A stretch of 20,805 bases of DNA, taken from a virus. Shown one piece after another: positions 1 to 15,283 of the stretch; position 1 is the stretch's first letter; each line of letters opens with the position of its first letter. Both the position numbers and the translations under genes were made by a program. The stretch covers positions 1 to 20,805 of the IMG/VR virus record IMGVR_UViG_3300036785_000724; one strand, 5' to 3'. Below the pieces are notes generated by a model. It ran no database searches. It was not told where the DNA came from and was given only the letters and a program-made list of their open reading frames with translations.

Positions 1-882
1 GAGGCCAGTAACGGCCATAGACGTTGCATCCTGCTTGTCCTGGATCGACAGATTTGTGGATGCATTCAACTGCGCAATCAGCTGTGATGATGCCGTCGCT
101 TTATCCTCGATCGACAGCTGGGTATTTGCGTTCAGCTGTGCGACGAATTGCTGCGTGGCCGATTGCTTGTCCTGGACCGACAGCTGCGTGGCGGAGTTGA
201 GTTGCGCGATGAACTGCTGCGATGCATTGTTGACTGTAGCTAGATCCTTTGCGCTGGCGATATTCAGTAGGGTTACGTCCCTCGTGCCGGCAAGCTGCTG
301 GGCAGTCTGTTGGGCGGTATTGATCCCTGCGGCGTTGCTCTGACTGACCGCTGTGCCCATCTGGGCATTTGCCAATGCCGCCGCATTCTGCGCCTGCACC
401 GTGTTCGTCATGGCCTGGTTGTAGGTGTTGGCGTCCGCCGTCGCGATCGGCGTGGCCGCCGTATAGAGCGCCGACTGGCCAGCCGTGATGCCCTGCGAGC
501 TGTTGATCAGCCCGCGCTGGTTCATGAGGTTGCGGGCGTTCGCCTCTGCCTGCTGCATGAGCGGCGAGCCGGACGCGATGATGTTGCTGATCTGGCCGGA
601 GACGGTCTGGTCGGCCTTGACGGTGAACGGGTTGGCCGTGGCGCTCGCAGCCTGGGCTTGGGCCGCCGTGTAGGGCGTCACGGTGGACCCGCCGACGGTC
701 TGCGGCGTCGGGCCGGGGGCTGCTCCCCCGGGCACTCCTGACGCCGCTGTGGCGGTCCCTGGGGCAGTATTGATCAGCCCGGTCGGTGTCGGCGAACCGA
801 GCGGGTTAGGCGCCCCAGGCAGCGGCGGGACCGGCGGCGGAACGGTGGGAGAATTGATCCCCGGTTGCAAACTTCCGCTCAT
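1..882 (-). CDS. Large virion protein, N-terminal part only (runs off left edge)
   Basis: The reading frame is open from an ATG at 882 down to base 1 (294 codons, no stop), so only the N-terminal part is present. The ATG overlaps the stop of the tail fibre gene as ATGA, which fixes the start by translational coupling. Residues 1-70 are rich in Pro and Gly and probably disordered. Residues 85-200 are rich in Ala, Gln and Asn and include NPFTVKADQTVSGQI and RGLINSSQGITAGQSALY, a pattern I associate with large podovirus virion proteins of the internal or ejection type. Residues 222-287 are three 22-residue repeats (separate entry), probably amphipathic helix. There is no signal peptide or enzyme motif. 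The role as an internal or ejected protein is inference; its position after the tail fibre gene agrees with it. Confidence 0.75.
   Translation of the reverse strand, partial: MSGSLQPGINSPTVPPPVPPLPGAPNPLGSPTPTGLINTAPGTATAASGVPGGAAPGPTPQTVGGSTVTPYTAAQAQAASATANPFTVKADQTVSGQISNIIASGSPLMQQAEANARNLMNQRGLINSSQGITAGQSALYTAATPIATADANTYNQAMTNTVQAQNAAALANAQMGTAVSQSNAAGINTAQQTAQQLAGTRDVTLLNIASAKDLATVNNASQQFIAQLNSATQLSVQDKQSATQQFVAQLNANTQLSIEDKATASSQLIAQLNASTNLSIQDKQDATSMAVTGL
22..219 (-). repeat. Three tandem 22-residue (66-base) repeats
   Basis: Residues 222-287 of the left-edge virion protein are three back-to-back units of 22 residues with the pattern (Q/S)Q(F/L)(I/V)AQLNxxTxLS(V/I)(Q/E)DK(Q/A)xA(T/S). 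Twenty-two is two hendecads, a period seen in long slightly right-handed coiled coils and apolipoprotein-like amphipathic helices. The repeats may go on beyond the window. Confidence 0.8.
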
Positions 883-2696
883 GTGCCGCGCGCCTCCAAC
901 GCCGCAATGCGCGTGAGCGCGTTCTGTAGCGCGGCCGTTAGGAACGCGATGTCCGCCTGGTAATCGCGGATCAGGCGGTGCCCGGCCTTGGCGAACCCAT
1001 CGCTGACTGCCATGCGCGCATCATCGCTCGGCAGCTGCCCGATCGCCTCCTCGCGACCTGCCGCGAGGTCCTCCTGCGCCACGAATCCAACAGTCGGCTT
1101 GCCGTCGAGCAGGTAGCGGCGAGGGCGGCCGCGCAGCACCCAATCGACGCCCTCGCCTGGCGTGAGATCGCGGATGTTGTCCTTTAGCCGACCGTCCGAG
1201 ACTGTCAGAAAGGCCTGTGCGGCAAACCCACCGACGGCTTGGGCTGAAATCCCCCACGTCCATGAAGTATTTGGAGCAGATATTCCAGATGTAACCAAAA
1301 ACGCACCGACGCTGCTTTCGGTGGCGGTGTGATTAAAAACCACCCCGCCGGTGAATACGCCGCCGCCCAGCGGCATATAGGTCTGCGATGCGCCAGCAGC
1401 CGTGACAAACCCCGCCGGGTAGTTTACCGTCGGAATGATGCCCAAGTCGGTGCCGTCTACTTGCGCCTTGAGACCTGAGCCACTCCACCCGATGCGGATC
1501 TTGTTGCTGCCTTGGCCGCTGCCGCCACCCTGCTCGATCGGGGTATACCCAAGCGCATCCTGCTTGCCAGCGATGGCGAACCCTACCTGCCCGGCGGTCT
1601 GGTAGCCCGCCGGGTTGCTCGCAGCATAGCGCGACGTGTCAGTAGGATGCACATGATCGCCGCGCGACATGCGAGGGTATATGCCAGCAGAAGCAGTACC
1701 GTCCATCCACGGCGTAAGGGTCGACATTTGGCCTGCAATCCAGGCTGTATTCACAATATATGTGCCGAACGTGTCTATTGTCGGCGTCGGTGTAGTCGGA
1801 TTGCCGGTGAGCGCTGGAGATGAAACCAAAGAAATCAGGTTTCCCGCAACCTGAATATTGGCGCCCCCGGTCAGCGAGGTCGCCGAATTCATCTGCGTGA
1901 ACGAAATGGCCGTCGTGCCTACCGTCACAGTTCCAGCTGGATTGCACAGCCAATTGGTATTGGCATTGACCGTGCCGCCGGCGTGGATTGGCACGAAGGC
2001 GCCAGCAAACTCCCCCGGCTGGTCCATGCTGGTGACGCGCGTCAGAATGTATGCGACGCCCGCCGTGCCAGCGGTCGTCACAATGTATAGGCCGTTGTTC
2101 GCCTGCGCGGCCTCATTCTTGACCAGCACGAGCTGGTCGGCAACCAGAGCGATGCCGTCTACAATGAGCACTCCGACAGTGGTTGCTGTCAGGGTGGCGC
2201 CGACCCCCGCCGTGCCATTGGCGTAGGTGTTCGGCGGGAACAATGCAGAGGCGGTCGCGGCATCTGCGGTCGGCTTCATCTGCATGCCAGAGGCGAAGCC
2301 ATCCACGTAATTCTTCGTTGCCGCATCCGTAGCCGCCAGCGGCACTCCCAGATCAGTGATTTTGTTGCCGCCCATCGAGAGATCCGCGGCGGCCGTGGCA
2401 AGCTGCTCCGGCCGTGTGCCCAGCACGAAGGCCGTCGACGCTATCTGTGTCGTCGCAGAGCCATTGGTCGCTGTTGGCGTTGTCGGAGTGCCGCTCAGAT
2501 GCGGCGATGCCAAGGGCGCCAGCAGCGCCTCGGCCGCCAGAGCGCGCGCCGTTTCCGTCGTCGCCCCGCTACCCAGCGACGTATCGATCAGATCGAATGC
2601 GGCCTGCAAGTTTGTGAACTCGCCGCGAACCAGCTCTGACAGCCCTTTGCTATGCGAGGCCGGATTGCCGCTTGGCGTGTAGAACGGATTGGTCAC
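879..2696 (-). CDS. Tail fibre/spike with C-terminal S74 self-cleaving chaperone
   Basis: 605 residues from a GTG start at 2696; AGGA lies 8 bases upstream, and the previous stop is at 2709. The N-terminal part contains Thr/Ala-rich repeats of the type LxGxPTTPTxx seen in phage tail fibres. The middle carries SRGDHVHPTDTSRY, the fibre motif with conserved DHVHP. The C-terminus, about residues 500-605, begins SDGRLKDNI and holds GFVAQE and a final helical stretch. This is the hallmark of the S74 intramolecular chaperone of endosialidase-type fibres, which helps the trimer fold and then cuts itself off at the Ser of SD(G)RLK. If that holds here, the mature fibre is about 499 residues. The role is host receptor binding at the tail tip. 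No glycosidase motif is visible in the body. The gene sits between the 740-residue tail protein and the left-edge virion protein and overlaps the latter by ATGA. Confidence 0.9.
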   Translation of the reverse strand: MTNPFYTPSGNPASHSKGLSELVRGEFTNLQAAFDLIDTSLGSGATTETARALAAEALLAPLASPHLSGTPTTPTATNGSATTQIASTAFVLGTRPEQLATAAADLSMGGNKITDLGVPLAATDAATKNYVDGFASGMQMKPTADAATASALFPPNTYANGTAGVGATLTATTVGVLIVDGIALVADQLVLVKNEAAQANNGLYIVTTAGTAGVAYILTRVTSMDQPGEFAGAFVPIHAGGTVNANTNWLCNPAGTVTVGTTAISFTQMNSATSLTGGANIQVAGNLISLVSSPALTGNPTTPTPTIDTFGTYIVNTAWIAGQMSTLTPWMDGTASAGIYPRMSRGDHVHPTDTSRYAASNPAGYQTAGQVGFAIAGKQDALGYTPIEQGGGSGQGSNKIRIGWSGSGLKAQVDGTDLGIIPTVNYPAGFVTAAGASQTYMPLGGGVFTGGVVFNHTATESSVGAFLVTSGISAPNTSWTWGISAQAVGGFAAQAFLTVSDGRLKDNIRDLTPGEGVDWVLRGRPRRYLLDGKPTVGFVAQEDLAAGREEAIGQLPSDDARMAVSDGFAKAGHRLIRDYQADIAFLTAALQNALTRIAALEARGT

Positions 2697-2708: not shown

Positions 2709-4931
2709 TTAGACGCGCATACCGCGACGCATGCTATAGTGGTGAATGATGCTGTTGATTGTATAGGGCGCGATATAGTTCGTGCCGCTCGTGATCGTAA
2801 CACGCACATTCTCGGCCGTTCCTGTCTCGTCGACATCAGTCGGAAACAGCCCGGAACCGTCCCATGTGAACTCGTCCCACACGAAGCTGTCCCAGAACGG
2901 AACCGTGCCAAGATTCAAAACTGCACTCGTGTCTGGAATCTGCGCGATCTGGTCTGAATTGTAACCGAGCTGATAGCCATACTGGATTTCCGTGTAATTA
3001 TCGCCCTGCACCTCTATCGATGCTGCCCTGAACCGCTTCAGAATGCGCGGCGACTTGATGGCATCCCATGCAGTCTGAAAATAGGCATTGATCGCTCGCC
3101 CATCAAAGCTGGTCCCGCGATCGAGCTGATAGACATAGCCGCTTTCGCTGCCAGCATAAGTCGCCTCATCGTCGGTCACCAGCTTCGTGTTGTCCACGCA
3201 AGTCATGCAGTCTGGAAACAACGCTAGTCCGGCGCCAAGATATTGCTGGTTCAGCACCGTGCAGTAGAGCGCATAGCCGTCGGCGAAGAACAGCCGATAC
3301 TGGCTCTTTTCGCGGCTGACCGCGGATGCCACCAGATTGCCGCGCTCACGGGCGATGAACGGCAGTATGTTCTTTGTCAGCGTGGTCGGCAGGAAATTGC
3401 CCCAGTTCAGCGTGGTCTTCAGCGTCACCGCGCCAAGGTCATCCAGAAAGAACGTGTCGAATAGGTTCTGGATCGAGTACGGCACCGCGCCAATGCCGGT
3501 GTTGAACGTGACGAAGTTGAAGGTGTCCGGCGAGGTGCCGTAAAGGAACGCGCTATTGTTGTGCAGGAACACGCCCAGCGTTGCGGTGGTCTGGCTGCCC
3601 GGCAGGGTGATCATGCCGGTGATGGTGTCGCCAGTCGCGATCTCGCCCGCACCATCGACCGCGCTCCACTTGAACGGATTGCCGGCAGCGCAATAGAACA
3701 GCGAGGCAGCCTGCGCGAGAAACAGGAAGTTTTTGTGGAACGCGATATGCAGCGGATGATCGGCCGTCAATCCGGTGCTGATCGGCGCCAGCGTCTCGCC
3801 ATCGAACTCGAACGCTGGATTGACGCCATCGACGCCGTAGATCCGACGGGTAACTAGCTGGCCGGAGAAGTTGCACTTGACGAACTCGAACCGTCCACCT
3901 GACGCCATAACGATGGGTTTCTGTATGTCCGAGATCGTCACATGTGCGCCGCTGGTCGTGGTGGCGGCGCCTGCCGTGAAGTCGCCGTGGTCGATCTGGT
4001 CGACCACAAACCGTCCGACAGCCGTTCCCCCTGTCCATGAGCCGGACTGCCACATCACGCGCTTGATCGTCGCAGTCGCGCTTCCCTGCGTCAGCGTGTC
4101 CCCATCGAGCGGTATCGCCGTGCCGCCGGCCGTGAACTCCACGGTATGAAAATAGGGTATCAGCACCCAGCCCATCGAGCTGGCCCGGTAGAGCAGCGCG
4201 TAGATGCCGCCAGCATTGGCACGGAATGCATAGAGCTGGTCGACCCCTCCGAATGCCATGCTGACGACGCCAAGCACCGGCCCGCTGCCAGGCACCTTGC
4301 CGATCAGTGCACGATAGACATCAGCGGCTGCCGCTCGGTAGATCGCATCTGTCTTCGCATCGACCTGGAATATTTGAGGTGTCGCCACGCCCAGCACGCC
4401 AAAGCCCAGAAGTTCCAACTGGCTGCTATCATCAAATTGCCCGGAAACGCGCGTCAGCACCAAATACGGTGTTGGTGTTGTCACAATGACCGCAATAAGA
4501 CCGCTCGCGCCGGTTGCCCTCTGAATGACCGTCTGACCAATGGTTGGCTTGCCGGCAATAGTTCGAGGCGAGGAGACAAAGTCAGAGTCGAAATCGGTAG
4601 TGAAATCGGCCGGCACGGAATGCCCCACCACATCGCCAAGCGCTGGAACAGACGGATCGCCCGCAATGACCTGCACAATGATGTAGGTCGCCGTGCTCGG
4701 CGAGGGATGGCCATCGGTGCGCTCGTAGCCCGCAACGCGCGTGTAACCGCCAAATTGGGCCACCTCGAAGTTGAGCACGTCATGCAGCGCACCAGGCGGC
4801 AGCCGCAGCGGCGGCGTGGTGAGGTCGAGGCCGCCAGGAAATGTCTGGCCCTGCGCGTTGCTTCCATGGCCCAGCTGTGTTTGTGTGTATTTGACCGCCG
4901 GCCACTGCTGCTTTTGGGCAGTAGCACTCAT
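2709..4931 (-). CDS. Large tail protein (nozzle/tail-tube-B-like position), 740 aa
   Basis: 740 residues; the ATG at 4931 overlaps the stop of the GH5 gene as ATGA. The sequence is soluble, rich in beta-type segments, with no signal peptide or membrane helix. The N-terminal part has LPPGALHDVLNFEVAQFGGY, a pattern often found near the start of large podovirus tail proteins (promising rather than diagnostic). Repeated FTAGG/FxGG segments and aromatic motifs suggest a beta-propeller or beta-sandwich protein. By gene order (adaptor-like protein, this protein, tail fibre) it fits the nozzle or tubular B protein of short tails. This is inference from size and position. No catalytic motif is recognised. 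The next gene (tail fibre) starts 12 bases after its stop. Confidence 0.7.
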   Translation of the reverse strand: MSATAQKQQWPAVKYTQTQLGHGSNAQGQTFPGGLDLTTPPLRLPPGALHDVLNFEVAQFGGYTRVAGYERTDGHPSPSTATYIIVQVIAGDPSVPALGDVVGHSVPADFTTDFDSDFVSSPRTIAGKPTIGQTVIQRATGASGLIAVIVTTPTPYLVLTRVSGQFDDSSQLELLGFGVLGVATPQIFQVDAKTDAIYRAAAADVYRALIGKVPGSGPVLGVVSMAFGGVDQLYAFRANAGGIYALLYRASSMGWVLIPYFHTVEFTAGGTAIPLDGDTLTQGSATATIKRVMWQSGSWTGGTAVGRFVVDQIDHGDFTAGAATTTSGAHVTISDIQKPIVMASGGRFEFVKCNFSGQLVTRRIYGVDGVNPAFEFDGETLAPISTGLTADHPLHIAFHKNFLFLAQAASLFYCAAGNPFKWSAVDGAGEIATGDTITGMITLPGSQTTATLGVFLHNNSAFLYGTSPDTFNFVTFNTGIGAVPYSIQNLFDTFFLDDLGAVTLKTTLNWGNFLPTTLTKNILPFIARERGNLVASAVSREKSQYRLFFADGYALYCTVLNQQYLGAGLALFPDCMTCVDNTKLVTDDEATYAGSESGYVYQLDRGTSFDGRAINAYFQTAWDAIKSPRILKRFRAASIEVQGDNYTEIQYGYQLGYNSDQIAQIPDTSAVLNLGTVPFWDSFVWDEFTWDGSGLFPTDVDETGTAENVRVTITSGTNYIAPYTINSIIHHYSMRRGMRV

Positions 4932-6157
4932 GCAAGCCAGCCCATTTGCTGCATCAGCTTGCCCATGCTGGACAGTGTATTGCCATTCCCGTCCAAGAAC
5001 AGGTTGTCCCCCTCATGGTAGCCGTTGGTTGCACTCCAGAACGCAGCACCGCACTCATGGGCCTGCTGGCTTTGGATGATATGCCTCACGCAATCGGCGC
5101 CTTTGGCATCAACCGTTCCGCCGTCTGTTGAATCGCCGAACTCGTCAACGACAGAGTACAGCCCGGTCGCATTGCAGCCATTTTGCAGGTTTCCGTTCCA
5201 CCAGTCATTGTAGTTATGGGGGCAGAGGAAAATCTGGTTGTTCTGGGAGATTGAAGCCATGGTTGGTCCCACGTTGTCGAGCTGCCATCCGCCCCTGATT
5301 TCCAACCCGATAGGATTGGTCCATCCGGCGGCGCGACACGCATTGATGATCCGTATCTGATCGCCGCTCACATCGCCGCCCGGCTCGTTTGGAGTTTCGA
5401 TGAATGCATACGGATTGCTTTTGAAAGCCGCACACATGTTTTGATACCAGCCGATGGTCGAGCCGTCCACCCCGGAATGGTAGTCAATCAGACAGATTAT
5501 CTGCCTGCCGGTCAATTCGGCGACCATGGATCTGATGTTGTCTACGGTGGTATCCCCGCCGCAGACCACGCGCACGAAATTTATGCCAGGGAAATTCCTG
5601 TATACGTTGGCCTTGATTTGGTTGAACTCGCCCCACCACCAATTGACGCCGCGCAACTCCCATTTATTGCCTTTGTTATCGCGGAAGCCGTTCGCCTGAT
5701 TCACGGTGAATCCCGTGGCGCTGCCAGGGGGCGGTGGCGGAGGAGGCCCAACCGTCGGGTCGCTTTCCTGCACCCACACTGGCGGATTGGTCGGTGCCGA
5801 GTTCCACCATCCAGGCGGCGTCCAGTTGTTCTCCTGATGGATCTTCCCGCCGAACCACCCGAGCTTAACGACGCCTGCGGTCTTGCCGTCGGTGATGCCG
5901 TTCGCCTGGACCTGAAAGCCGGAAGCCCCTTGGACGAGCGTCCACGGCCACGGTGGGCTGTGGTTGTCGTAGATGATCTGACCGGCCGCCGTGATCCATG
6001 TGTCGTCCGGCGAGGTCGTGGGCACGGGCGGGGCGCTTGGCTGTAACGCCGCGACCTGGCCCTGCATCACTACAGCCAACTTCTGCAGACTGTCGACCGC
6101 TGTCTTTATCTGATCCGAGGAAGCCTTGAGTGCGTCAATATCAGATTGCGTTGTCAT
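4928..6157 (-). CDS. Tail-associated GH5-type glycoside hydrolase
   Basis: 409 residues from an ATG at 6157 with AAGGAGA 6-7 bases upstream. Three parts are visible. Residues 1-40 are a short coiled-coil-like helix. Residues 52-132 form a Trp-rich module (WITAAGQIIY, GITDGKTAGVVKLGWFGGKI) like the small beta domain found beside phage and bacterial glycosidases. A Pro linker (GPPPPPPPG) at 137-145 leads to the catalytic domain, 150-409. The catalytic part matches family GH5 (cellulase/mannanase clan A): LRGVNWWW near 168, DYHSG at 225-229, ETPNEPGG with acid/base Glu258, PHNYNDWW at 313, VDEFGD with nucleophile Glu339, and AFWSATNG with the conserved Trp at 374. All the key residues are present, so it is probably active on a beta-glycan such as host capsule or exopolysaccharide. 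There is no signal peptide. It lies among tail genes and overlaps the next one by ATGA, which suggests a virion component. The substrate cannot be told from sequence. Confidence 0.85.
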   Translation of the reverse strand: MTTQSDIDALKASSDQIKTAVDSLQKLAVVMQGQVAALQPSAPPVPTTSPDDTWITAAGQIIYDNHSPPWPWTLVQGASGFQVQANGITDGKTAGVVKLGWFGGKIHQENNWTPPGWWNSAPTNPPVWVQESDPTVGPPPPPPPGSATGFTVNQANGFRDNKGNKWELRGVNWWWGEFNQIKANVYRNFPGINFVRVVCGGDTTVDNIRSMVAELTGRQIICLIDYHSGVDGSTIGWYQNMCAAFKSNPYAFIETPNEPGGDVSGDQIRIINACRAAGWTNPIGLEIRGGWQLDNVGPTMASISQNNQIFLCPHNYNDWWNGNLQNGCNATGLYSVVDEFGDSTDGGTVDAKGADCVRHIIQSQQAHECGAAFWSATNGYHEGDNLFLDGNGNTLSSMGKLMQQMGWLA

Positions 6158-6172
6158 GCTAAATCTCCTTTT

Positions 6173-6886
6173 CTATGCAAGCGAGCCTGCCCAACTCACT
6201 TTGGGCGCGCGCACCGCCTGCAACTGCGCATACATTCCGGCGTTCTCCTCCGACCCTCGCTCCCAGACTTCGGGCGCACTCTCGTACCGCCCATATTTCA
6301 TCATGGTTCGATACACGATCAGCATATGAAAGCGCTCCGGCAATCCGGCCGGCACGTCGAAGTCGTTGACCATCGTGCTCGGCGCGACAAAGTAGTCGCC
6401 CGTCACGGTGTAATCGTCGTTTGGTGGCGGCCCGAGGTTCAGCGAGTTGTCGGGGCCGATCGCGATGGCGACCGGGCGCGTCTTGACCGTCCGCATCGCG
6501 CCATACATGTAGCTGTCGCGCCAGGTGTCGAACGGGATGTCGGTCAGATACGTTTCGGCCCGGAACCCCACTGCTGTCGGGAACACGCGGAACGTCCCCT
6601 TTTCCCACTTGCCAAAGACCTTGGTCAGATCATCGCCGAGCGGGTAGCTGGCCTGTCCGCCAACGGTCTGAAGCGCGATGCCACCGCCGAGCAGGTTGGA
6701 AGACCGCATCCAGCCCCAATCGTCGTGGTCCATCTGAATGTCGGTCCAGCCGTCGTTGATCCAAGATACGATGCGACCAACGCTTCCGGTTGCGCCTGTG
6801 ACGGTCGGCAATACGGTCTGAATAGCGGAACCGCTCGCAACGCCGCAGTTCATGACTGCCGATCTCGCCAAATCCAAGAAATTCAC
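6173..6886 (-). CDS. Head-tail adaptor-like protein (tubular A/adaptor position)
   Basis: 237 residues from a GTG at 6886. I chose this start because the protein then opens with VNFLDLARSAVMNCGVASG, the usual opening of this phage family (M-x-FL-x-L...GxxGsG), and because GGAGAAGG lies 9 bases upstream. A longer frame up to 7024 would overlap the end of the 1546-residue gene and adds unlikely residues. The segment GRIVSWINDGWTDIQMDHDDW is followed by a beta-rich half ending in MLIVYRTMMKYGRYE. This layout, a helical N-terminal part and a beta-rich C-terminal part of 200-250 residues, is typical of podovirus head-tail adaptors. It probably joins the portal ring to the tail. The gene order (adaptor, GH5, large tail protein, fibre) supports this. 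Confidence 0.7.
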   Translation of the reverse strand: MNFLDLARSAVMNCGVASGSAIQTVLPTVTGATGSVGRIVSWINDGWTDIQMDHDDWGWMRSSNLLGGGIALQTVGGQASYPLGDDLTKVFGKWEKGTFRVFPTAVGFRAETYLTDIPFDTWRDSYMYGAMRTVKTRPVAIAIGPDNSLNLGPPPNDDYTVTGDYFVAPSTMVNDFDVPAGLPERFHMLIVYRTMMKYGRYESAPEVWERGSEENAGMYAQLQAVRAPKVSWAGSLA

Positions 6887-6890
6887 ACTT

Positions 6891-9800
6891 TCACACCTTC
6901 TCCAATGGCCTGATGCCGATTTTCGCGCCTCGCTCGTCGTCATCGCGCAGACCGATTGTGGCGCGAGGCCCCGGGCCGGGTCCGATGCCGATGGTTGCGC
7001 CACGTGCGGCGAATGCCGGCACACCGATCTTTGCGCCTCGGTCTGTCACTGTGCCGGCTGCGATTTCGGCGCCATGGGATAGGGGCGAAATGACATCGAT
7101 CTCGACGATCGCCGGCCGGACCTGGGCATCGGCTCTGAAGGCAGCAATCGGGCCGAATATCGCGGCTGCCTGGAAGGTATAGAGCTGCCTGGCGTAGACG
7201 GTCGGATCAGCGACCAGCGCTGCCCGAGCCGCCATCTCGGTCACTGCGACGAACAACTGCGCAGGACTGGCGACAAGAGTTGCGGTCGGGGCCAGCGTCG
7301 CATTGGCGGCTATGCGGATAGCCCGGACCGTCGGATCGGCACTCAATGACGCACTGGCACCAAGCGATGCCGCTGCCCTAGCTTTCAGCCTCGCCGTAGC
7401 GGCCAGCGTCGGAGACGGGACCAGCGTCGCGGTGGTCGGCACTTTGAACGTATGGACCGTCGGGTCTGCGACCAGCGAGGCGCCAGCCCCGAGCGTCGCC
7501 GCCGCAACAGCCCTCGCCGTCACAGAGGCGGTTAATCCGCCTGCTGGAGCCAGCGTCGCCGCCGCGGCTGCCCGCACCCCTGGCGAGGCTCTGAGGCCTC
7601 CTGCCGGCGTCAGGACTGTCGCAGCGCTGGCCTGCAGACCAGCCGTGGCGACAAGGCCGCCAGCAGCGCTTAGCAGCGCCCTGCCCCCCGCGCCCTTGTC
7701 CGGCGCTGCCGCCAGCGTGGCACTGGCAGCGAGCGTCGCCGTGGCGCGCGCCTCGACAACCGGCGTTGCAGCGATGGTCGGCGTCGGCGCCAGTGTCGCG
7801 CTCGCGGAGATCGACGAGGCGATCTGGACGAACCCGGCCGGCGCAGCGTAGGTCCAGTCTGTTTGGCCGAAGTGGCCGGTTACCTGGTCATTCTGGTTGT
7901 TGAGCGAAACCGCCGGCGCCACGCCGCCGCCCGCGTAGATCGAGGCGAATAGGGTCAGTCCGCCAGTTCCCGCCGCCGGGTCTCCAGTCGGATACCAGGC
8001 GCCCCCGTTGACCGCTACCCAGAGTTTGTGAACGTTGGCGTTGTAGGCAAACCGGCAGACGCTGCCTTGGACAAAGAGCGGCGGATATATACCAGTGTAA
8101 TCGCCGGCGGCGGTGGCAAATCCTGCATTGCCCTGCCATGTGTCCCATTCCAGGGCATTGACATCGTTGGCCAGGCTATTGGCGGCCGTGGCATCGAACG
8201 ACGGATTGGCGAGACCGACCGTTACGTTATCGGCAGCCGCCGTGACGATCTGGATTTCCCAATAGTACGACCGCGTACTGACGAAGATCGTGCCGATATC
8301 GCAGCCGCGCACACCGTCGTTGGCGCCCGTCCGCGTCGTGGTGCGCCCGACATCGGTGACGGTCAGGGCGCCGTATTTGTTGGTCGTCGACCACTTTTCT
8401 GCCGGGGCAGGAATCAGTGTCGGATTGGCGGCAAAGGTCGGTGCAGCCGCGAGCGCTGTGCTCGCTGCGAGCTTGGCCCGTGCCGTCGCGGCTATTCCGG
8501 CGCTCGCCGCCAGCGTAGCTGTTACCGGCCGCTGCGGTGTGCCGTTGGCAGCCAGGCCGGCTGCCGCGGCTATCGTGGCTGCGCCGTTGAGTTCCGCTGT
8601 TGCGCTGGCAGCGAGGCTGGCTGCCGCTGCTATCGTCGCCTTCGCGGCGAGGTCGGCTGTCACACTGGCGCTGAAGCCGGCAGTGGCCGTCAGCGTGGCG
8701 GATGCAGAGATCGGTCCGCCGCCACCAGTCTGGACTGTGGGATCGGCGGTCAGTCCGGCGGTGACCGGCAGCATCGCGGTGACCGGAACCGCGCGCGCCG
8801 GCGTCGATGTCAGGGTCGCGGTGGCTGCCAGACTGCCGGTTGCGACCAGCTTTGCGGTCGCCGTCGGCGTCAGCGTGGCGGCAGGAGCGAGGGCCGCTGT
8901 TGCCCGTAGGATCTGGTTGGCGAGTGCGGAGAAGCCTGCGGACACCGCCAGGGTCGTGCTAGCTGAGACGGAAGCGGCAGAGCGTAGTTCGACGAAGCTG
9001 GTCGGCGCTGAATAGGTCCAGTCCGCCTGGGCGAAGTGGGCCGTTACCTGGTTGTTCTGAGCATTGAACGAAACAGCGGGCGCTATGCCGCCGGCGTAGT
9101 TCGACGCGAACAGCGGCAAGCCGCCGGTTCCGGCCGCAGGATCGCCGCTCGGATACCACGCACCGACATTGACCGCGACCCAGAGCAGGTGGGTGGTGGC
9201 GTTGTAGGCAAACCGGACGACATCGCCCTGGACGTAGTTCGGAGCACTATAGGCGCTCAAATCTCCGGCGGCTGTGGAATAGAACGCGCCACCCTGCCAG
9301 GTATACAAGCCTAGAGCGTCGTTAGCATTTCCAATGTTGACGGTGTTTGATGTGCCATCAAACGATGAAGCTGCGACGCCAATATATATGTCGTCGGTCG
9401 TGAGTGATGTAAGCGCGAGCTCCCAGTAGTACGCGCCGGTACTGACAAAGAGCGTGCCGACATCGTTGCCACGGACGCCATCGTTGGCCGTGGTCCGTGT
9501 GGTGATCTGCCCGGCGCCGCTGACCGCCAGGCCGGAATATTTGTTGGTGGCCGACCAGCGTTCGGCCGGTACTCTCGGATTTGCCGTGAAGGTCGCGGCC
9601 GGCGTGAGTGCGGTCGTGCCGAGCAGCTTCGCGGTCGCCGCCGGCGTCAGTGTCGCAGCGGCGGGGAATGCTACACTAGCCGCCGAGGTCTGTGTCACCG
9701 TGCCGGTGAACGTAGCAGCCGCTGCCAGCGTGGCAGTAGCCGGCACCTCGCGCACTGGCGTAGCCGTCACGGTGGCTACAGCGGCCAGAGACGCGGACGC

Positions 9801-11531
9801 GGCGGCTGTCTGCGTTACCGTGCCGGCGAACGTGGCACCTGCCACGAGGGCGGCAGTGACCGGAACAGCCCGGACGGGCGTCGGCGTCAGTGTGGCGACG
9901 GCGGGCAGTGTTGCAGATGCAACTAATTCGGCTGTTGCGGTCGAGGTCAGTGTCGCAGCAGAAGCCAGCGTCGCAGTTGCTGGAACAACGCGGACAGGCG
10001 TCGATGTCAGGGTGGCCGCAGCAGCGAGCGTGGCGGTTGCCGCCGCTACTTGCGCAGCCGTGCCGGCGAACGTCGCAGCGGCATCGAACTCGGCGCCGTC
10101 GTCGTAGGAATTGCCTGTGGCAGTTTGCGGCGTGGCATCGGCGCCGAAGCTCGGAACCGCAGCCAGCGCGGCCGATGCGACGAGTTTGGCGTCAACGTCT
10201 GGGACAAAGCCAGCGGCAGCCGATAGCGTCGCGACTCCCGCAGCGGCTCGAACCGGCGTCGGCACCAAGGTTGCGCCCGCCGCGAGCGTCGCTGATACGA
10301 CCAGCTTCGCATCGGCATCCGAGACGAAGCCAGCCCCCGCCGCGAGCGTCGCGGTGCCGGGGACGGCCCGGACAGGCGTCGGAGTTAGAGCGGCGGCAGC
10401 CGCGAGCGTTGCCGCGCCCAGCAACTTCGCATCAGCGTCGCCGCTAAAGGTCGCCACGGCATCCGGATGCGTGGATGCGACCAAGATGGCATCGGCGTCG
10501 GCGCTAAAGCCGGCGTTGACATCGAACTCGGTGCCGCCGTCGTAATTCTGGCCACCGGCGCCTGCCTGCCTTGTCGGATCGGCACCGAAGGTCGGATTGA
10601 CATCGAGTTCGGCGCTTCGGGCGACGAGAATTGCCCTAGCAGTCGCAACGAACGTCGGATTAACGTCGAGTTCGGCTGGTTGGGCGGCAGCTATTACCGT
10701 AACGGCAGCGCCGGCTCCTGCCTGGGCATTCACCGAACAGCCGCACATCGGCATGTTGCCCGAGACGCCGGTGGTGGATGTCCAGGTGAGTGATGCTGTG
10801 CTGGGTGCCCGAGAGCCGGCGGACCCAAAGTTCAAGTTGTTATTGTAGATCGCGGCTGAACTGGTGGCGGTGAGCGCACTTACCGCCTGTGGAGTGGCGG
10901 ACATGCAGACCGAGAGATCGCCGACATCTCCAGTGATGGCGAGAGTGGTGGATGTTCCGCTTAGGTTGCTGGAATTGAAGTTGCCGAAGCAGTTGGCGAC
11001 TGACGATGTATCAGAGCCGGTGTAGGACTGCGCCGTGAGGGTAAAGTCGGCACTTGTCGTCCAGCTCGCAGCAAGTGTGTGGTTGCCTGTTGTCGGAGAG
11101 ACTAGACCGAACATCCAGATGTGGTCGTTTGTTCCGTCTACGTGTCCAATCAGCGTCATCAACTGATTGGTGCCGGTGCTGTCCCAGTGCAGCGATGGCG
11201 ATGTGATCGTCAGGTCTGTCGCCAGGAAGGCGATCATCGACGTGGCGCTGGCGCCAACCGTCAATGTCGTATTGGTGGCGGAGGCCCCCGTTCCGGCTGT
11301 GACCGTCGTGGCCGTGGCGTCTACGGCTACATTGCCACCGCCGCCACCGCCGCCCGCGCCGAAGGTCGGGTTGACATCGAGTTCGGCGCTTCGGGCAGAG
11401 AGAATTACCCGGGCGGTCGGGGTCAGTGTAGCGGCGGCCGAGAGCGTCGACCTGCCAAGAAGTTTGGCGCGTGCAGTGGGGGTTAGGTGGGGGGCCGGTG
11501 CCAGCGTGGCCCCCCCATTGAAGTTAGCCAC
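6891..11531 (-). CDS. Giant low-charge repeat protein with two SPRY-like domains (1546 aa)
   Basis: 1546 residues from a GTG at 11531 with GAGGGGA upstream; the stop at 6891 is followed after 4 bases by the adaptor-like gene. The order of parts is: residues 1-58, short repeats; 60-67, a Gly run; about 68-270, a beta-sandwich-like domain with paired Cys (MPMCGC near its end); 285-372, degenerate repeats with ELDVNPTF; 373-655, mostly regular 20-residue repeats; 656-849, first SPRY-like domain; 850-1043, more repeats; 1044-1237, second SPRY-like domain; 1238-1485, repeats; 1486-1546, RGAxIGx repeats. The repeats are Ala/Thr/Val/Pro-rich with very few charges, which suggests an extended fibrous shaft or beta-solenoid. 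No signal peptide or catalytic site is seen. A virion surface fibre is inferred from its place between a fibre-type protein and the adaptor. The SPRY-like domains are probable binding modules. Confidence 0.8.
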   Translation of the reverse strand: MANFNGGATLAPAPHLTPTARAKLLGRSTLSAAATLTPTARVILSARSAELDVNPTFGAGGGGGGGNVAVDATATTVTAGTGASATNTTLTVGASATSMIAFLATDLTITSPSLHWDSTGTNQLMTLIGHVDGTNDHIWMFGLVSPTTGNHTLAASWTTSADFTLTAQSYTGSDTSSVANCFGNFNSSNLSGTSTTLAITGDVGDLSVCMSATPQAVSALTATSSAAIYNNNLNFGSAGSRAPSTASLTWTSTTGVSGNMPMCGCSVNAQAGAGAAVTVIAAAQPAELDVNPTFVATARAILVARSAELDVNPTFGADPTRQAGAGGQNYDGGTEFDVNAGFSADADAILVASTHPDAVATFSGDADAKLLGAATLAAAAALTPTPVRAVPGTATLAAGAGFVSDADAKLVVSATLAAGATLVPTPVRAAAGVATLSAAAGFVPDVDAKLVASAALAAVPSFGADATPQTATGNSYDDGAEFDAAATFAGTAAQVAAATATLAAAATLTSTPVRVVPATATLASAATLTSTATAELVASATLPAVATLTPTPVRAVPVTAALVAGATFAGTVTQTAAASASLAAVATVTATPVREVPATATLAAAATFTGTVTQTSAASVAFPAAATLTPAATAKLLGTTALTPAATFTANPRVPAERWSATNKYSGLAVSGAGQITTRTTANDGVRGNDVGTLFVSTGAYYWELALTSLTTDDIYIGVAASSFDGTSNTVNIGNANDALGLYTWQGGAFYSTAAGDLSAYSAPNYVQGDVVRFAYNATTHLLWVAVNVGAWYPSGDPAAGTGGLPLFASNYAGGIAPAVSFNAQNNQVTAHFAQADWTYSAPTSFVELRSAASVSASTTLAVSAGFSALANQILRATAALAPAATLTPTATAKLVATGSLAATATLTSTPARAVPVTAMLPVTAGLTADPTVQTGGGGPISASATLTATAGFSASVTADLAAKATIAAAASLAASATAELNGAATIAAAAGLAANGTPQRPVTATLAASAGIAATARAKLAASTALAAAPTFAANPTLIPAPAEKWSTTNKYGALTVTDVGRTTTRTGANDGVRGCDIGTIFVSTRSYYWEIQIVTAAADNVTVGLANPSFDATAANSLANDVNALEWDTWQGNAGFATAAGDYTGIYPPLFVQGSVCRFAYNANVHKLWVAVNGGAWYPTGDPAAGTGGLTLFASIYAGGGVAPAVSLNNQNDQVTGHFGQTDWTYAAPAGFVQIASSISASATLAPTPTIAATPVVEARATATLAASATLAAAPDKGAGGRALLSAAGGLVATAGLQASAATVLTPAGGLRASPGVRAAAAATLAPAGGLTASVTARAVAAATLGAGASLVADPTVHTFKVPTTATLVPSPTLAATARLKARAAASLGASASLSADPTVRAIRIAANATLAPTATLVASPAQLFVAVTEMAARAALVADPTVYARQLYTFQAAAIFGPIAAFRADAQVRPAIVEIDVISPLSHGAEIAAGTVTDRGAKIGVPAFAARGATIGIGPGPGPRATIGLRDDDERGAKIGIRPLEKV
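6894..7076 (-). repeat. C-terminal RGAxIGx repeats of the giant protein
   Basis: The last 61 residues contain HGAEIAA, RGAKIGV, RGATIGI, RATIGL and RGAKIGI at intervals of 11-13 residues. They are unlike the 20-residue repeats upstream and carry most of the positive charge of the C-terminus. They may form a small beta-helical cap or an anchoring element. Confidence 0.7.
7821..8402 (-). repeat. SPRY-like domain, copy 2 (of two)
   Basis: Residues 1044-1237 of the giant protein. It has the same length (194 residues) and landmarks as copy 1, including the near-identical GAWYPxGDPAAGTGGL segment, so the two arose by duplication within the gene. The loops between landmarks differ most (for example after SFD), as would be expected for binding loops that have diverged. 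Confidence 0.75.
8985..9566 (-). repeat. SPRY-like domain, copy 1 (of two)
   Basis: Residues 656-849 of the giant protein. It shares with copy 2 the landmarks WSxTNKY, TRTxANDGVRG, STxxYYWE, TWQG, LWVAVNxGAWYP, GDPAAGTGGL and DWTYxAP. The YYWE plus IGVAxxSFD pattern is that of SPRY/B30.2-type beta-sandwich domains. The unit is 194 residues long. Confidence 0.75.
9576..10415 (-). repeat. Tandem 20-residue (60-base) repeats in the giant protein
   Basis: Residues 373-652 of the 1546-residue protein form about 14 units with the pattern ATLAAxATLTxTPVRxVPxT. Units ending TPVRxVPxT often alternate with units ending in xDADAKLVxS or GTVTQTAAAS. The 20-residue phase is kept exactly over most of the stretch, with one interruption around residues 470-490. 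More degenerate units of the same type fill residues 850-1043 and 1238-1485. Confidence 0.85.
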
Positions 11532-11580
11532 CTGCTGTTCCCCTCTGCCGCACTAGTTCAGGCGCGGCTACACCGGCAGA

Positions 11581-11976
11581 TCACCCCATGGTGGCGATGA
11601 TGGCCCCCGAAGCGAACAGCAGATAGTCGCCGACGCCCAAGCTGCGCGCGGTCGCCAGCAGGCCGAACAGCAGCATATTGCCGCCGGTCACGGCGCTGGT
11701 ATCCCACAGCTGAAGCCCGGAGAACTGCGCCGCGCCCGAGTTCGGCCCCATGGAGAAGGCAGTATTGCTCGTGCATGAGCCGCCCGCATTCCCTACGGCG
11801 AAGGCAACGGGCGCACGGTTCATGCCGCTGCCGGTCGCGAGCTCGGACGCCGCGGTCGGCGTCGGCGAGCCGAGCGACAGGCCGATCGCCCACGAGGTGG
11901 GGCGCGTTGGCGCGGTGGTGGTGGTGAGATACCAGTTGTTCAGCGAGTTGTAGAACGGCGATCCGACGGCAGCCAT
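11581..11976 (-). CDS. Small phage tail-fibre-type protein
   Basis: 131 residues from an ATG at 11976 with AGAGGAG 9 bases upstream. It follows a common small phage protein pattern: an N-terminal helix with a SLNNWYL segment, a LxLGxPTPTAASE segment, then QFSGLQLWDTSAVTGGNMLLFGLL and GVGDYLLFASG. This corresponds to the family motif in which HFGIFDA-SGGNLL is followed by a GD(x)2-3F segment, usually annotated as a tail fibre or virion protein. The protein is soluble and beta-rich. It lies directly upstream of the 1546-residue repeat protein and may be its partner or base. The precise role is unknown. Confidence 0.7.
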   Translation of the reverse strand: MAAVGSPFYNSLNNWYLTTTTAPTRPTSWAIGLSLGSPTPTAASELATGSGMNRAPVAFAVGNAGGSCTSNTAFSMGPNSGAAQFSGLQLWDTSAVTGGNMLLFGLLATARSLGVGDYLLFASGAIIATMG

Positions 11977-12017
11977 GGGCGTGTCTCCTCTTTACAAGGC
12001 GGTCTTACGGTCGATGC

Positions 12018-12106
12018 TGGCGCGAGGGGGAGGAGTCGAACCTCCCGATCACAATGGCACCCGCCAGGAAGTATCGCCGCGTCCGGCAACCTTTTCCGTG
12101 CCTCGC
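12018..12106 (-). tRNA. tRNA-like element (degenerate or unusual)
   Basis: The 146 bases between the 131-residue and 567-residue genes hold an 89-nt tRNA-like sequence. It has a perfect T arm (stem 12029-12033/12041-12045, loop TTCGACT) and an acceptor stem of 12100-12106 against 12022-12028 with six of seven pairs. A 3' GCCA is encoded at 12018-12021, and a TGGC/GCCA hairpin stands where a class II variable arm would be. The D arm pairs over only three bases, and I cannot build a clean seven-base anticodon loop. It may be a decayed phage tRNA or a tRNA mimic. No anticodon is assigned. I see no gene in the remaining bases of the gap. Confidence 0.4.
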
Positions 12107-12122
12107 ATGTCTCTCTGAGGCG

Positions 12123-13826
12123 CTACACAGCGAGCGCCCTGCGCGCTTCGTCAACGATATTTTCGACGGGAATGCTGCTGATGCAGCCGGCATAGGCGCC
12201 GTCAACCGGCGTCTTGCACGTTGAGATTGACGGGTGGAGCAGGTGGCATGGCCAGCACGGAATCGCGTCCTGATCCGGCGGGATCATGGACACGACATTC
12301 TTCCAGTGCTTCGTGATGTTCGTCGGCGAGGCGTGCGAATGCAGGATGATCTTCGGCACGTCTTCCATCGCCGCAGCCCACGCCAGGCCACTATCCGGTG
12401 CGATGAGCAAATCGACCGACTGCGCCATGGTGCATTGCCGCCGAATGCCCCACTCGAATTTGGGGTTGATCTTGGGTTCGATCAGCCTGCCATCCTGCTG
12501 CATGATTACGTCGTGCTTGCCGGGAATTGCGATCTGCACCCCGTCGATATCGCCGTTCTGCCGCTTGACGTGGTCGGCGATCGCCTGCGCCAGCTCACGG
12601 TCCGTCGGGCCGCCCATCAGGAATACCGTCGCATCCAACTCGCGGATCAGCCGCGAAATGAGCAGGCCGGAGTGCGGATAGACCTTGTCGACGCGCGTGC
12701 CCGAAACGTGCCAGCCAATGATCTTCTTGCCGCGGCCGAACTTCTGCCGCATCGCCTGCGCATCGGCCCGTTCCTCGTCCGTCGGAAAGAACAGCGGGTG
12801 GCCGAACTCCTCACGCACGCAGGTGAAGGCGTGGGCGACCTCCAGGTAGGAATACCGGCAGATCCAGCGCCGGGCCTCATCAGGGAGCTCGAAATAGGTC
12901 TGGTGCGGCTGAAACGCCTGAAACGCCTCCATGCTGTGCGAGAGGTGGACGGTGTGGGCATAGCCGTGGCGCCGGATGCGCCACCATTCTGACAGGTCGC
13001 CGGGGATGGGATGCTGGATCACCGACAGCTTGGCGATGGATGGATTGTTCTCGAAAACGACGTGATGCGGCGCGGCAGCGATCACCTCGACATTGTATTC
13101 CTCTGCCAGCAGCGGCAACGCGCTCGCCACCACGCAGTTGTCCCCGACGCCGCCGAACCGGCAGACCAGCGCCCAGGGCTTGTCCGGGTCATAGGTGACG
13201 GGCCGGATCGGCTTCGGCGCCGGCTTGGTGCCCTTCGGCATCAGGACCAAATAGCCTTCGTGCTGCAGCACTTTCTGGACCTGGTGCGTCTCGCCGACGG
13301 CTTCGGTGACGAAATCTATGGTCCGCTTGGGCGGGACGAGCGTGCGCAGCGGACCCTGGATGTTGCCGTGCTCGAACTCGTCGTCGAGGTAGATCCGCAG
13401 ATCGTCGGCAATGATCACGTCACGCCGGGCCGGCCGGTTCTCGGCGATGATGCGCAGTTCCTCGGCGAGCGGCAGCCGCACCTCGTCGTCCGGCTCGTCG
13501 TTGAATGGCCGCAGGCCGAAGTCGGCGCCGGGGAAGTGCGCATCTAACCAGAACAGGATCGGCTCGTCTTCCGGGATGGCGCGGCACTTTGCTAGGATGA
13601 AGTCGGCGGAAGCGCGGCATTCGATGTGGATGATCGGGTCCTCTGCGAACGCCTGCGCGACCTCTTCGGCCAGCTGACGCTCAATCTCGCAGGAACTGAT
13701 CGTCTCGAAGCCGAAGCGGGCGGCGTGCTCGATGCCGGCGCCTCTGCCCGTGCCGGTTTCGACGAAGTGCTTGATGCCGCAGGTGCCGATGATACGCGCA
13801 AGGTCGAACGTGGCGATGGAGCCCAT
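12123..13826 (-). CDS. Fusion: methyltransferase-like domain + GT9-like glycosyltransferase
   Basis: 567 residues; the ATG at 13826 overlaps the previous stop as TGATG. Residues 1-195 look like a class I SAM methyltransferase-type domain: FVETGTGRGAG (21-31) as the nucleotide loop, CEIE (46-49) as the acidic strand end, FWLDAHFPG (92-100) and IIADDLR (138-144). Residues 219-567 look like a GT9 (ADP-heptose-transferase-like) enzyme: VCRFGGVGDN (221-230), GWHVSGTRVDK (371-381), FLMGG (402-406) and APDSGLAWAAAM (476-487), which is the GT9 sugar-nucleotide motif. A Cys cluster (CWPCH, C537, C548) follows near the end. No membrane segment is present. It probably modifies a glycan or a virion protein with a sugar, and may methylate it. 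Donor, acceptor and the activity of the methyltransferase half are unknown. Confidence 0.75.
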   Translation of the reverse strand: MGSIATFDLARIIGTCGIKHFVETGTGRGAGIEHAARFGFETISSCEIERQLAEEVAQAFAEDPIIHIECRASADFILAKCRAIPEDEPILFWLDAHFPGADFGLRPFNDEPDDEVRLPLAEELRIIAENRPARRDVIIADDLRIYLDDEFEHGNIQGPLRTLVPPKRTIDFVTEAVGETHQVQKVLQHEGYLVLMPKGTKPAPKPIRPVTYDPDKPWALVCRFGGVGDNCVVASALPLLAEEYNVEVIAAAPHHVVFENNPSIAKLSVIQHPIPGDLSEWWRIRRHGYAHTVHLSHSMEAFQAFQPHQTYFELPDEARRWICRYSYLEVAHAFTCVREEFGHPLFFPTDEERADAQAMRQKFGRGKKIIGWHVSGTRVDKVYPHSGLLISRLIRELDATVFLMGGPTDRELAQAIADHVKRQNGDIDGVQIAIPGKHDVIMQQDGRLIEPKINPKFEWGIRRQCTMAQSVDLLIAPDSGLAWAAAMEDVPKIILHSHASPTNITKHWKNVVSMIPPDQDAIPCWPCHLLHPSISTCKTPVDGAYAGCISSIPVENIVDEARRALAV

Positions 13827-14478: not shown

Positions 14479-15123
14479 CTACCTGCCAGCGATGGTCGCT
14501 ATGTCAATCGAATGAAAATGCTTCACCACAAAGCGTGTATCGCACATAAAGCGGCAGCCAGCCTCGCGCGCTGTGTACTGAAAATACACGTCGTCGCTGA
14601 CCACGAGCATATGCGTGTCGGCATCGAACAACTCGACGAAGTAGGGACGCTTCAGCTGGCCGAACACACGGCGATGCACAAACCACGCACCACCGCCAAG
14701 CCGGTCCACCTCAAGGCGCTGCGGCACCTCTGGGTTGGCGATACCCTCGAACCCCTTATGAAAGCCGCCCCATCCCTGTTGCACGAGCGTCTTGCCGTTC
14801 TGGTGCATATGCGAGATCGGCCCAATACCATCGATCTCGTCGGGCAGGCCTTCTAGGATCTGGAACAGATCATTTGGCGGACAGATGTCGTTGTCCACAA
14901 TGCACACCCAGTCGAAGCCGGGATGGTCATTAAGGAAGGAATCTACCGCCATGTTCGCCGATGCTGCCGCGTTTGGTGCGTCGCAGACTATGCGAACCGC
15001 TACCCGGTGCCCATAGTTGTACTCTCCGCCGTGCAATCGGATGAGCCACATGCCAAGCATGGGATTCCACCACCCTTGCCGCTCCATGTGGCACCGGACT
15101 GCAACAACCACGCCGCCGCTCAT
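14479..15123 (-). CDS. GT-A fold glycosyltransferase (family 2-like)
   Basis: 214 residues from an ATG at 15123. A longer frame to 15261 would overlap the small exported-protein gene and adds an Arg-rich, unconvincing N-terminus. Visible motifs are a GT-A-type nucleotide-binding start (VAVRCHMERQGW), WVCIVDNDICPP with the DxD-type DND at residues 77-79 (metal/sugar-nucleotide binding), IGPISHMH, GGGAWFVHRRVF, SDDVYFQYTAREAG at 176-189 and KHFHSIDI at 201-208. This matches phage and bacterial family 2-like transferases. It probably adds a sugar to a virion protein or to a host surface glycan. With the GT9-like fusion it forms a glycan-modifying pair inside the virion gene block. Donor and acceptor are unknown. 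Confidence 0.8.
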   Translation of the reverse strand: MSGGVVVAVRCHMERQGWWNPMLGMWLIRLHGGEYNYGHRVAVRIVCDAPNAAASANMAVDSFLNDHPGFDWVCIVDNDICPPNDLFQILEGLPDEIDGIGPISHMHQNGKTLVQQGWGGFHKGFEGIANPEVPQRLEVDRLGGGAWFVHRRVFGQLKRPYFVELFDADTHMLVVSDDVYFQYTAREAGCRFMCDTRFVVKHFHSIDIATIAGR

Positions 15124-15133
15124 GTGGGCAAAC

Positions 15134-15283
15134 TCACGGACCAAGCCCTGATGGGAAGCCGTGCCGGGTGCTCGATATGATAGCCGACGGGCCGCCTTGC
15201 TTGGCCCCCAAATCCTGCTTTGGCCCGGCAAACGCCGGCGCCAGCGCCAGCACCGCCGCAATGATCAGCACCAGGCGGGTCAC
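15134..15283 (-). CDS. Small exported peptide, 49 aa
   Basis: The frame from GTG at 15283 overlaps the preceding stop as GTGA. It begins VTRLVLIIAAVLALAPAFAG, a short signal peptide with a likely cleavage after AFA. The rest, about 30 residues, is Gly/Ser/Pro-rich and ends SGLGP. AAGGA directly abuts the GTG, so the start at 15283 is uncertain; a GTG at 15271 is an alternative with better spacing. It follows another small exported protein, and the GT-A gene begins 10 bases after its stop. Function unknown. Confidence 0.55.
   Translation of the reverse strand: MTRLVLIIAAVLALAPAFAGPKQDLGAKQGGPSAIISSTRHGFPSGLGP

Follow-up and report, generated by a model that had tools for sequence, protein, structure and literature searches.

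A giant 1546-residue repeat protein is encoded in the window analyzed here, a complete virus record of 20,805 bases, and with a probability of about 70% it is the enlarged rope of a GP4 fibre-I-type bead-on-rope fibre, carrying lectin-like inserts. The binding of beads, the attachment site, the ligands, and the length of this fibre are what we infer. Because a homologue of the GP4 bead protein is encoded immediately upstream, and because the order of a bead gene followed by a repeat gene is conserved, the protein would most likely be an outsized rope threading bead dimers.

The original prediction placed a 1546-residue protein at positions 6891–11531, and a minus-strand ORF with a GTG start at 11531 and a TGA stop was found there; the stretch AGAGGGGA precedes the GTG start. 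The protein is composed of three blocks of repeats, two SPRY domains, an N-terminal insert, and a C-terminal tail (Table 1). The predicted cysteines of the N-terminal domain were read from the sequence at residues 181, 209, 263, and 265, and the expected RGAxIGx repeats are present in the C-terminal cap. The claim of few charges holds for the repeats and the N-terminal domain, with 5–10% charged residues, but not for the tail, with 26%. No Pfam family matched the four-Cys insert (67–272), and a short stretch of it resembles the N-terminus of gp23 of mycobacteriophage CELFI.

Table 1. Features of the giant repeat protein and of its genomic neighbourhood (positions in the 20,805-base window)
Feature	Position	Strand	Remark
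Giant 1546-aa repeat protein	6891..11531	-	proposed rope with lectin-like inserts
Residues 1-58, N-terminal segment	11358..11531	-	two repeat units plus AELDVNPTFGA
Residues 67-272, four-Cys N-terminal insert	10716..11333	-	without Pfam match
Residues 286-655, repeat block 1	9567..10676	-	about 16 units, PTPVRAVP and DADAKLVAS types alternate
Residues 656-850, SPRY domain 1	8982..9566	-	PF00622, 28.0 bits
Residues 851-1043, repeat block 2	8403..8981	-	
Residues 1044-1238, SPRY domain 2	7818..8402	-	PF00622, 28.5 bits
Residues 1239-1478, repeat block 3	7098..7817	-	less regular
Residues 1479-1546, charged C-terminal tail, short RGAxIGx repeats	6891..7097	-	
Bead protein gene, 131 aa, homologue of GP4 fibre-I gp80	11581..11976	-	49 bases upstream of the giant gene
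SU10-type head-tail adaptor gene	6173..6886	-	PF24175, 2.2e-15
GT9-like glycosyltransferase protein, 567 aa	12123..13826	-	PF01075, 8.8e-05
Second glycosyltransferase-like gene	14479..15261	-	within the same insertion
GH5 cellulase-domain protein	4928..6157	-	PF00150, 3e-09; between adaptor and nozzle-like gene
Tail-fibre-like protein ending in a Peptidase_S74 intramolecular chaperone	879..2696	-	PF13884, 1.3e-4

The repeats are 20-residue units rich in Ala, Thr, and Leu. In all three blocks, the lag-20 autocorrelation exceeded that of every residue shuffle, and in block 1 the lag-40 autocorrelation did so as well because two types of unit alternate there. As predicted, 20-residue repeats were recovered: an iterative unit profile identified 30 strict units in the protein and none in any of 30 composition-preserving shuffles, and the periodicity test gave z = 12 at lag 20. 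Their phase had been described as strict, which applies to residues 373–655 and most of 851–1043, and 18 of 29 successive unit starts are spaced exactly 20 residues apart. Elsewhere the phase breaks, with spacings of 26, 27, 40, 43, 46, and 60, most markedly in residues 1239–1478.

The protein as a whole matched the SPRY profile at 6.4e-12 over two stretches. Searched alone, both domains still pass the Pfam gathering cut-off of 26.3 bits for PF00622, with 28.0 bits for SPRY1 and 28.5 bits for SPRY2. They are identical at 116 of 196 aligned positions (60%), and their codon-aligned DNA is 67% identical, consistent with the predicted pair of related SPRY-like domains. A profile check of the two units had been named beforehand as a possible refutation; both units matched. 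The SPRY family has a ConA-like, lectin-type fold. No relatives of the SPRY pair were found by direct search, and genomic SPRY matches were rejected as relatives, since the open frames that contain them are of another kind and lack 20-residue repeats. In a proteobacterial genome (L196, L198), SPRY domains, once in tandem, end long phage-tail-like open frames.

The AF2 model of the N-terminal insert had a pLDDT of 39, and the model covering SPRY had a pLDDT of 33, its SPRY part also being low and its alignment thin. The very low confidence of both models, the low-charge, Thr-rich repeats, and the glycosyltransferase-like gene that accompanies the bead and giant genes in both this phage and its relative L004 would suit a disordered, possibly O-glycosylated Ala/Thr-rich linker, decorated by the co-inherited glycosyltransferase and anchoring the lectin domains to the head with no beads involved. 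However, SPRY must fold and scores low as well; the low pLDDT therefore reflects only the thin alignment, and the models are uninformative as to whether the repeats are ordered. Furthermore, the maintenance of a 20-residue phase across many phages points to a structural period, and we consider a disordered linker improbable.

The genes of the window are transcribed in the order scaffold-like, major capsid protein, p166, p167, and p165 (three small conserved proteins), p147, a glycosyltransferase-like gene, two small genes, the GT9-like gene, bead, giant, SU10-type adaptor, GH5-domain protein, nozzle-like protein, and S74-type fibre. The major capsid protein matched the PHROG major head protein at 9.7e-55, and the scaffold and nozzle names are based on position and on comparison with MW202426. 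The adaptor starts 4 bases past the stop codon of the giant gene, with its start inferred from L004 and the sequence. The bead gene matched Pfam PF23140 (3.6e-14, 53.6 bits, cut-off 27) and chain 8jou_a of the PDB (E 0.015), whose entry has 10 such chains, and its product was aligned with 10 homologues. Among capsid-related loci, the GT9-like gene was found only with bead and rope, so its product may modify the Thr-rich rope. The GH5-domain protein is possibly a virion-borne glycan-degrading enzyme. Its N-terminal Trp-rich part is faintly similar to the insert of the L004 giant (E 0.016), a kinship that we rejected as weak.

To examine the bead-then-repeat order, bead loci were gathered in bulk (n = 101) and every neighbour was tested, with a gene counted as periodic when its best lag was 20 and z > 4. 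The gene at +1 was periodic in 69 of the 101 loci, which come mostly from one search of related viral contigs and so are not independent; among control neighbours, 0 of 483 genes at −6 to −1 and 4 of 359 at +2 to +6 were periodic. A best lag of 20 occurred in 33 of 694 control genes. When bead homologues were pooled at 50% identity, 9 of the 17 clusters tested were periodic, the cluster of this phage included. In 32 of the bead loci, no 20-residue-repeat gene was found within six genes of the bead. The genes after the bead homologues in BcepIL02, POI1126, PBC5, MW202879, MEP401, and CELFI all exhibit 20-residue periodicity. For L110 and L138, a foreign fibre gene adjoins the bead, whose periodic gene comes two or three positions later; in L110 a collagen-plus-S74 fibre gene (3245–4492) lies between the bead gene and the 20-residue-repeat gene.

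The giant is the longest protein adjoining a bead in this set, followed by those of L004 (792 residues), L126 (767, without the period), and CELFI (766). Other rope-type genes also carry extra domains, namely CELFI gp23, with a glycine-rich domain, and L199. Short-repeat charged C-terminal tails are also seen in the BcepIL02, POI1126, and CELFI ropes; by a pattern chosen after inspection, the tail motif is enriched in these three and in the giant but absent from L004 and others. BcepIL02 gp56, which follows the bead, consists of 20-residue repeats, is annotated as virion-associated, and falls in a PHROG of virion structural proteins. In JC1 virions, the bead (gp53) was detected by mass spectrometry (PMC9144972). 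We rejected a 40-residue double repeat per bead dimer as a general rule because only 4 of the 69 ropes had a stronger signal at lag 40 than at lag 20.

This gene order also bears on whether the protein could stand without beads, as a self-supporting homotrimeric fibre in which the 20-residue repeats form a beta-spiral-like shaft with SPRY heads, the bead gene belonging to a separate structure. The alternation of small and hydrophobic residues in the repeats is like that of fibre shafts, such as the adenovirus fibre shaft with its 15-residue repeats, and Burkholderia phage AH2 has a SPRY domain in an ordinary tail-fibre protein. However, the tight bead-then-repeat order in unrelated phages is hard to explain without a joint function, and two large heads placed mid-chain rather than at the end would be awkward in a trimer. 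We therefore regard a homotrimeric shaft as unlikely.

The relationship to other ropes lies in the arrangement. Between the giant and the BcepIL02-side rope family (phrog_19041), there was no PHROG match and no phmmer match, and the alignment did not exceed shuffles; the giant is therefore not classed as a homologue of that rope, and our claim is that it works like one. Its alignment exceeded residue shuffles, which destroy the repeats on one side, only with MEP401, CELFI, and L184. Searches with tblastn under a low-complexity filter found no phage relatives, and direct search found no relatives among viral contigs; relatives were reached only through the capsid protein and bead searches. A profile of the giant and its L004 version, and a single-protein bead search, returned the L004 contig only. 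When the giant, its L004 counterpart, repeat block 1, and BcepIL02 gp56 were searched against the PDB, nothing useful emerged; an antibody chain matching the giant (E 0.036) was taken as chance. Additionally, sequence searches of the PDB did not identify the GP4 rope chain, and no homologues of the two GP4-side adaptor-like genes adjoining the bead were found in the window.

To place the locus among its relatives, we used loci retrieved via the capsid protein (n = 80). In 48 of the 59 retrieved loci holding both flanks, p165 and the adaptor are separated by no more than 100 bases, and a few of the loci carry cargo in this slot. The combination of bead and giant was present there only in the studied sequence and L004 among the loci examined; thus, the bead/rope/glycosyltransferase module is an optional insertion. 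In L070, the same slot holds a 1204-aa tailspike-like protein (10063–13677), and the slot thus looks like an exchange site for fibre cargo. An optional slot, empty in most relatives, would also be compatible with the giant being non-virion cargo, a secreted or intracellular repeat protein. This is very improbable, since the giant is placed between the capsid and adaptor genes within a single block, other cargo of a fibre-like type occupies the same slot, as in L070, and a rope-type relative is annotated as virion-associated.

The proteins of L004, the nearest relative, are 94% (capsid protein), 89% (bead), and 91% (GT9-like) identical to those of the studied phage. Its version of the giant has 792 residues, with the same N-terminus and repeats but without SPRY; the first 55 residues are 93% identical, and residues 314–483 are 82% identical. 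Moreover, an unrelated-looking domain replaces the four-Cys insert. Judging from these sequences, the same rope thus appears to bear different heads in two close phages. An assembly artefact behind the giant is unlikely because the L004 neighbourhood is collinear.

Fibre I of Ralstonia podophage GP4 is reportedly made of five gp80 dimers linked by an elongated rope protein, according to the GP4 tail paper. Ten gp80 chains are present in PDB 8jou. Similar to the giant locus, GP4 fibre I and the BcepIL02 gp55–gp56 pair have a bead homologue followed directly by a 20-residue-repeat protein, a position in a virion-structure gene block, and, for BcepIL02 by the post hoc motif pattern, a short-repeat charged C-terminal tail. 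In contrast, the BcepIL02 partner has 285 residues and no inserted domains, whereas the giant has 1546 residues, two SPRY domains, and a four-Cys insert, with no detectable similarity between them. CELFI gp23 (766 aa, annotated as a "minor tail protein") also follows a bead gene and shares the 20-residue repeats and, by the post hoc motif pattern, the short-repeat charged tail. A short stretch of its N-terminal domain matches the four-Cys insert. It differs in its glycine-rich domain, its lack of SPRY, and its siphophage-type tail gene block.

Phage phiCbK offers a further giant. Its gp072 is a bead homologue (L089, 7743–8135; E 7e-6 against the bead of the studied phage in a set of 19 proteins), and this bead gene sits four genes before gp76 (L205, 550–8949), which encodes 2799 residues with glycine-rich domains, a Laminin_G_3 lectin domain, and 22–24-residue repeats. 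Gill et al. (2012) proposed gp76 as the phiCbK head filament without proteomic proof, and the identity of this filament was called of significant interest (PMC3556154). Like the giant, gp76 is a very long repeat protein that includes a ConA-like lectin domain; its gene lies in the head gene block, with a gp80-type bead gene nearby. Unlike the giant, it has a period of about 22–24 residues, glycine-rich domains, and Laminin_G_3 rather than SPRY, and three genes separate it from the bead. The original prediction knew of no such arrangement in phage fibres; this view is not upheld, given the recurring bead/20-residue-repeat gene pair, the solved GP4 bead (8jou), and the 2799-residue lectin repeat protein of phiCbK.

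Two further systems are more distant. The Anabaena myophage A-1(L) has five flexible bead-chain fibres at its neck, involving gp80, gp81, and gp82 (PMC10966104). In contrast to the fibre proposed here, its gp81 trimers chain by themselves, without a rope protein; the name gp80, shared with GP4, is a coincidence of numbering, and the two were compared by description. The AH2 tail-fibre protein is another case of SPRY in a phage fibre, although its Pfam score of 25.6 lies just below the cut-off, and SPRY lectins occur in jumbo phages (PMC7824862). Unlike the giant, the AH2 and jumbo-phage proteins have one SPRY domain in an ordinary fibre protein, with no 20-residue repeats noted.

For the bead-on-rope fibre, we propose that dimers of the gp80-like bead encoded immediately upstream would be arrayed along the 20-residue repeats, with one repeat or one repeat pair per bead, so that the number of repeats would set the length of the fibre. 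Lying between repeat blocks, the two SPRY domains and the N-terminal insert may project along its length as heads that bind ligands. The attachment point would probably be the head–tail junction, and the fibre might allow an initial, weak interaction with glycans on the host surface or in the environment, ahead of engagement by the tail. The idea of a two-headed, flexible surface fibre is thus retained in part: the SPRY matches, the virion-structure gene block, and the adjoining bead gene agree with it, while the self-supporting shaft gives way, as the likely mechanism, to a rope threading beads, the bead being a partner that had not been considered.

More tentatively, bead-on-rope fibres may constitute a general class of appendage in podo-, sipho-, and jumbo phages, in which the number of 20–23-residue repeats would determine length and spliced lectin-like domains would determine targets, the phiCbK filament possibly being gp072 beads on gp76. 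If the bead-on-rope reading is right, one gene-order rule, bead and then repeat gene, would explain long repetitive proteins annotated as "minor tail" or "hypothetical", ropes could bear exchangeable lectin-type heads, and fibre length would be predictable from the number of repeats. Moreover, there would be a concrete two-gene candidate for the head filament of phiCbK.
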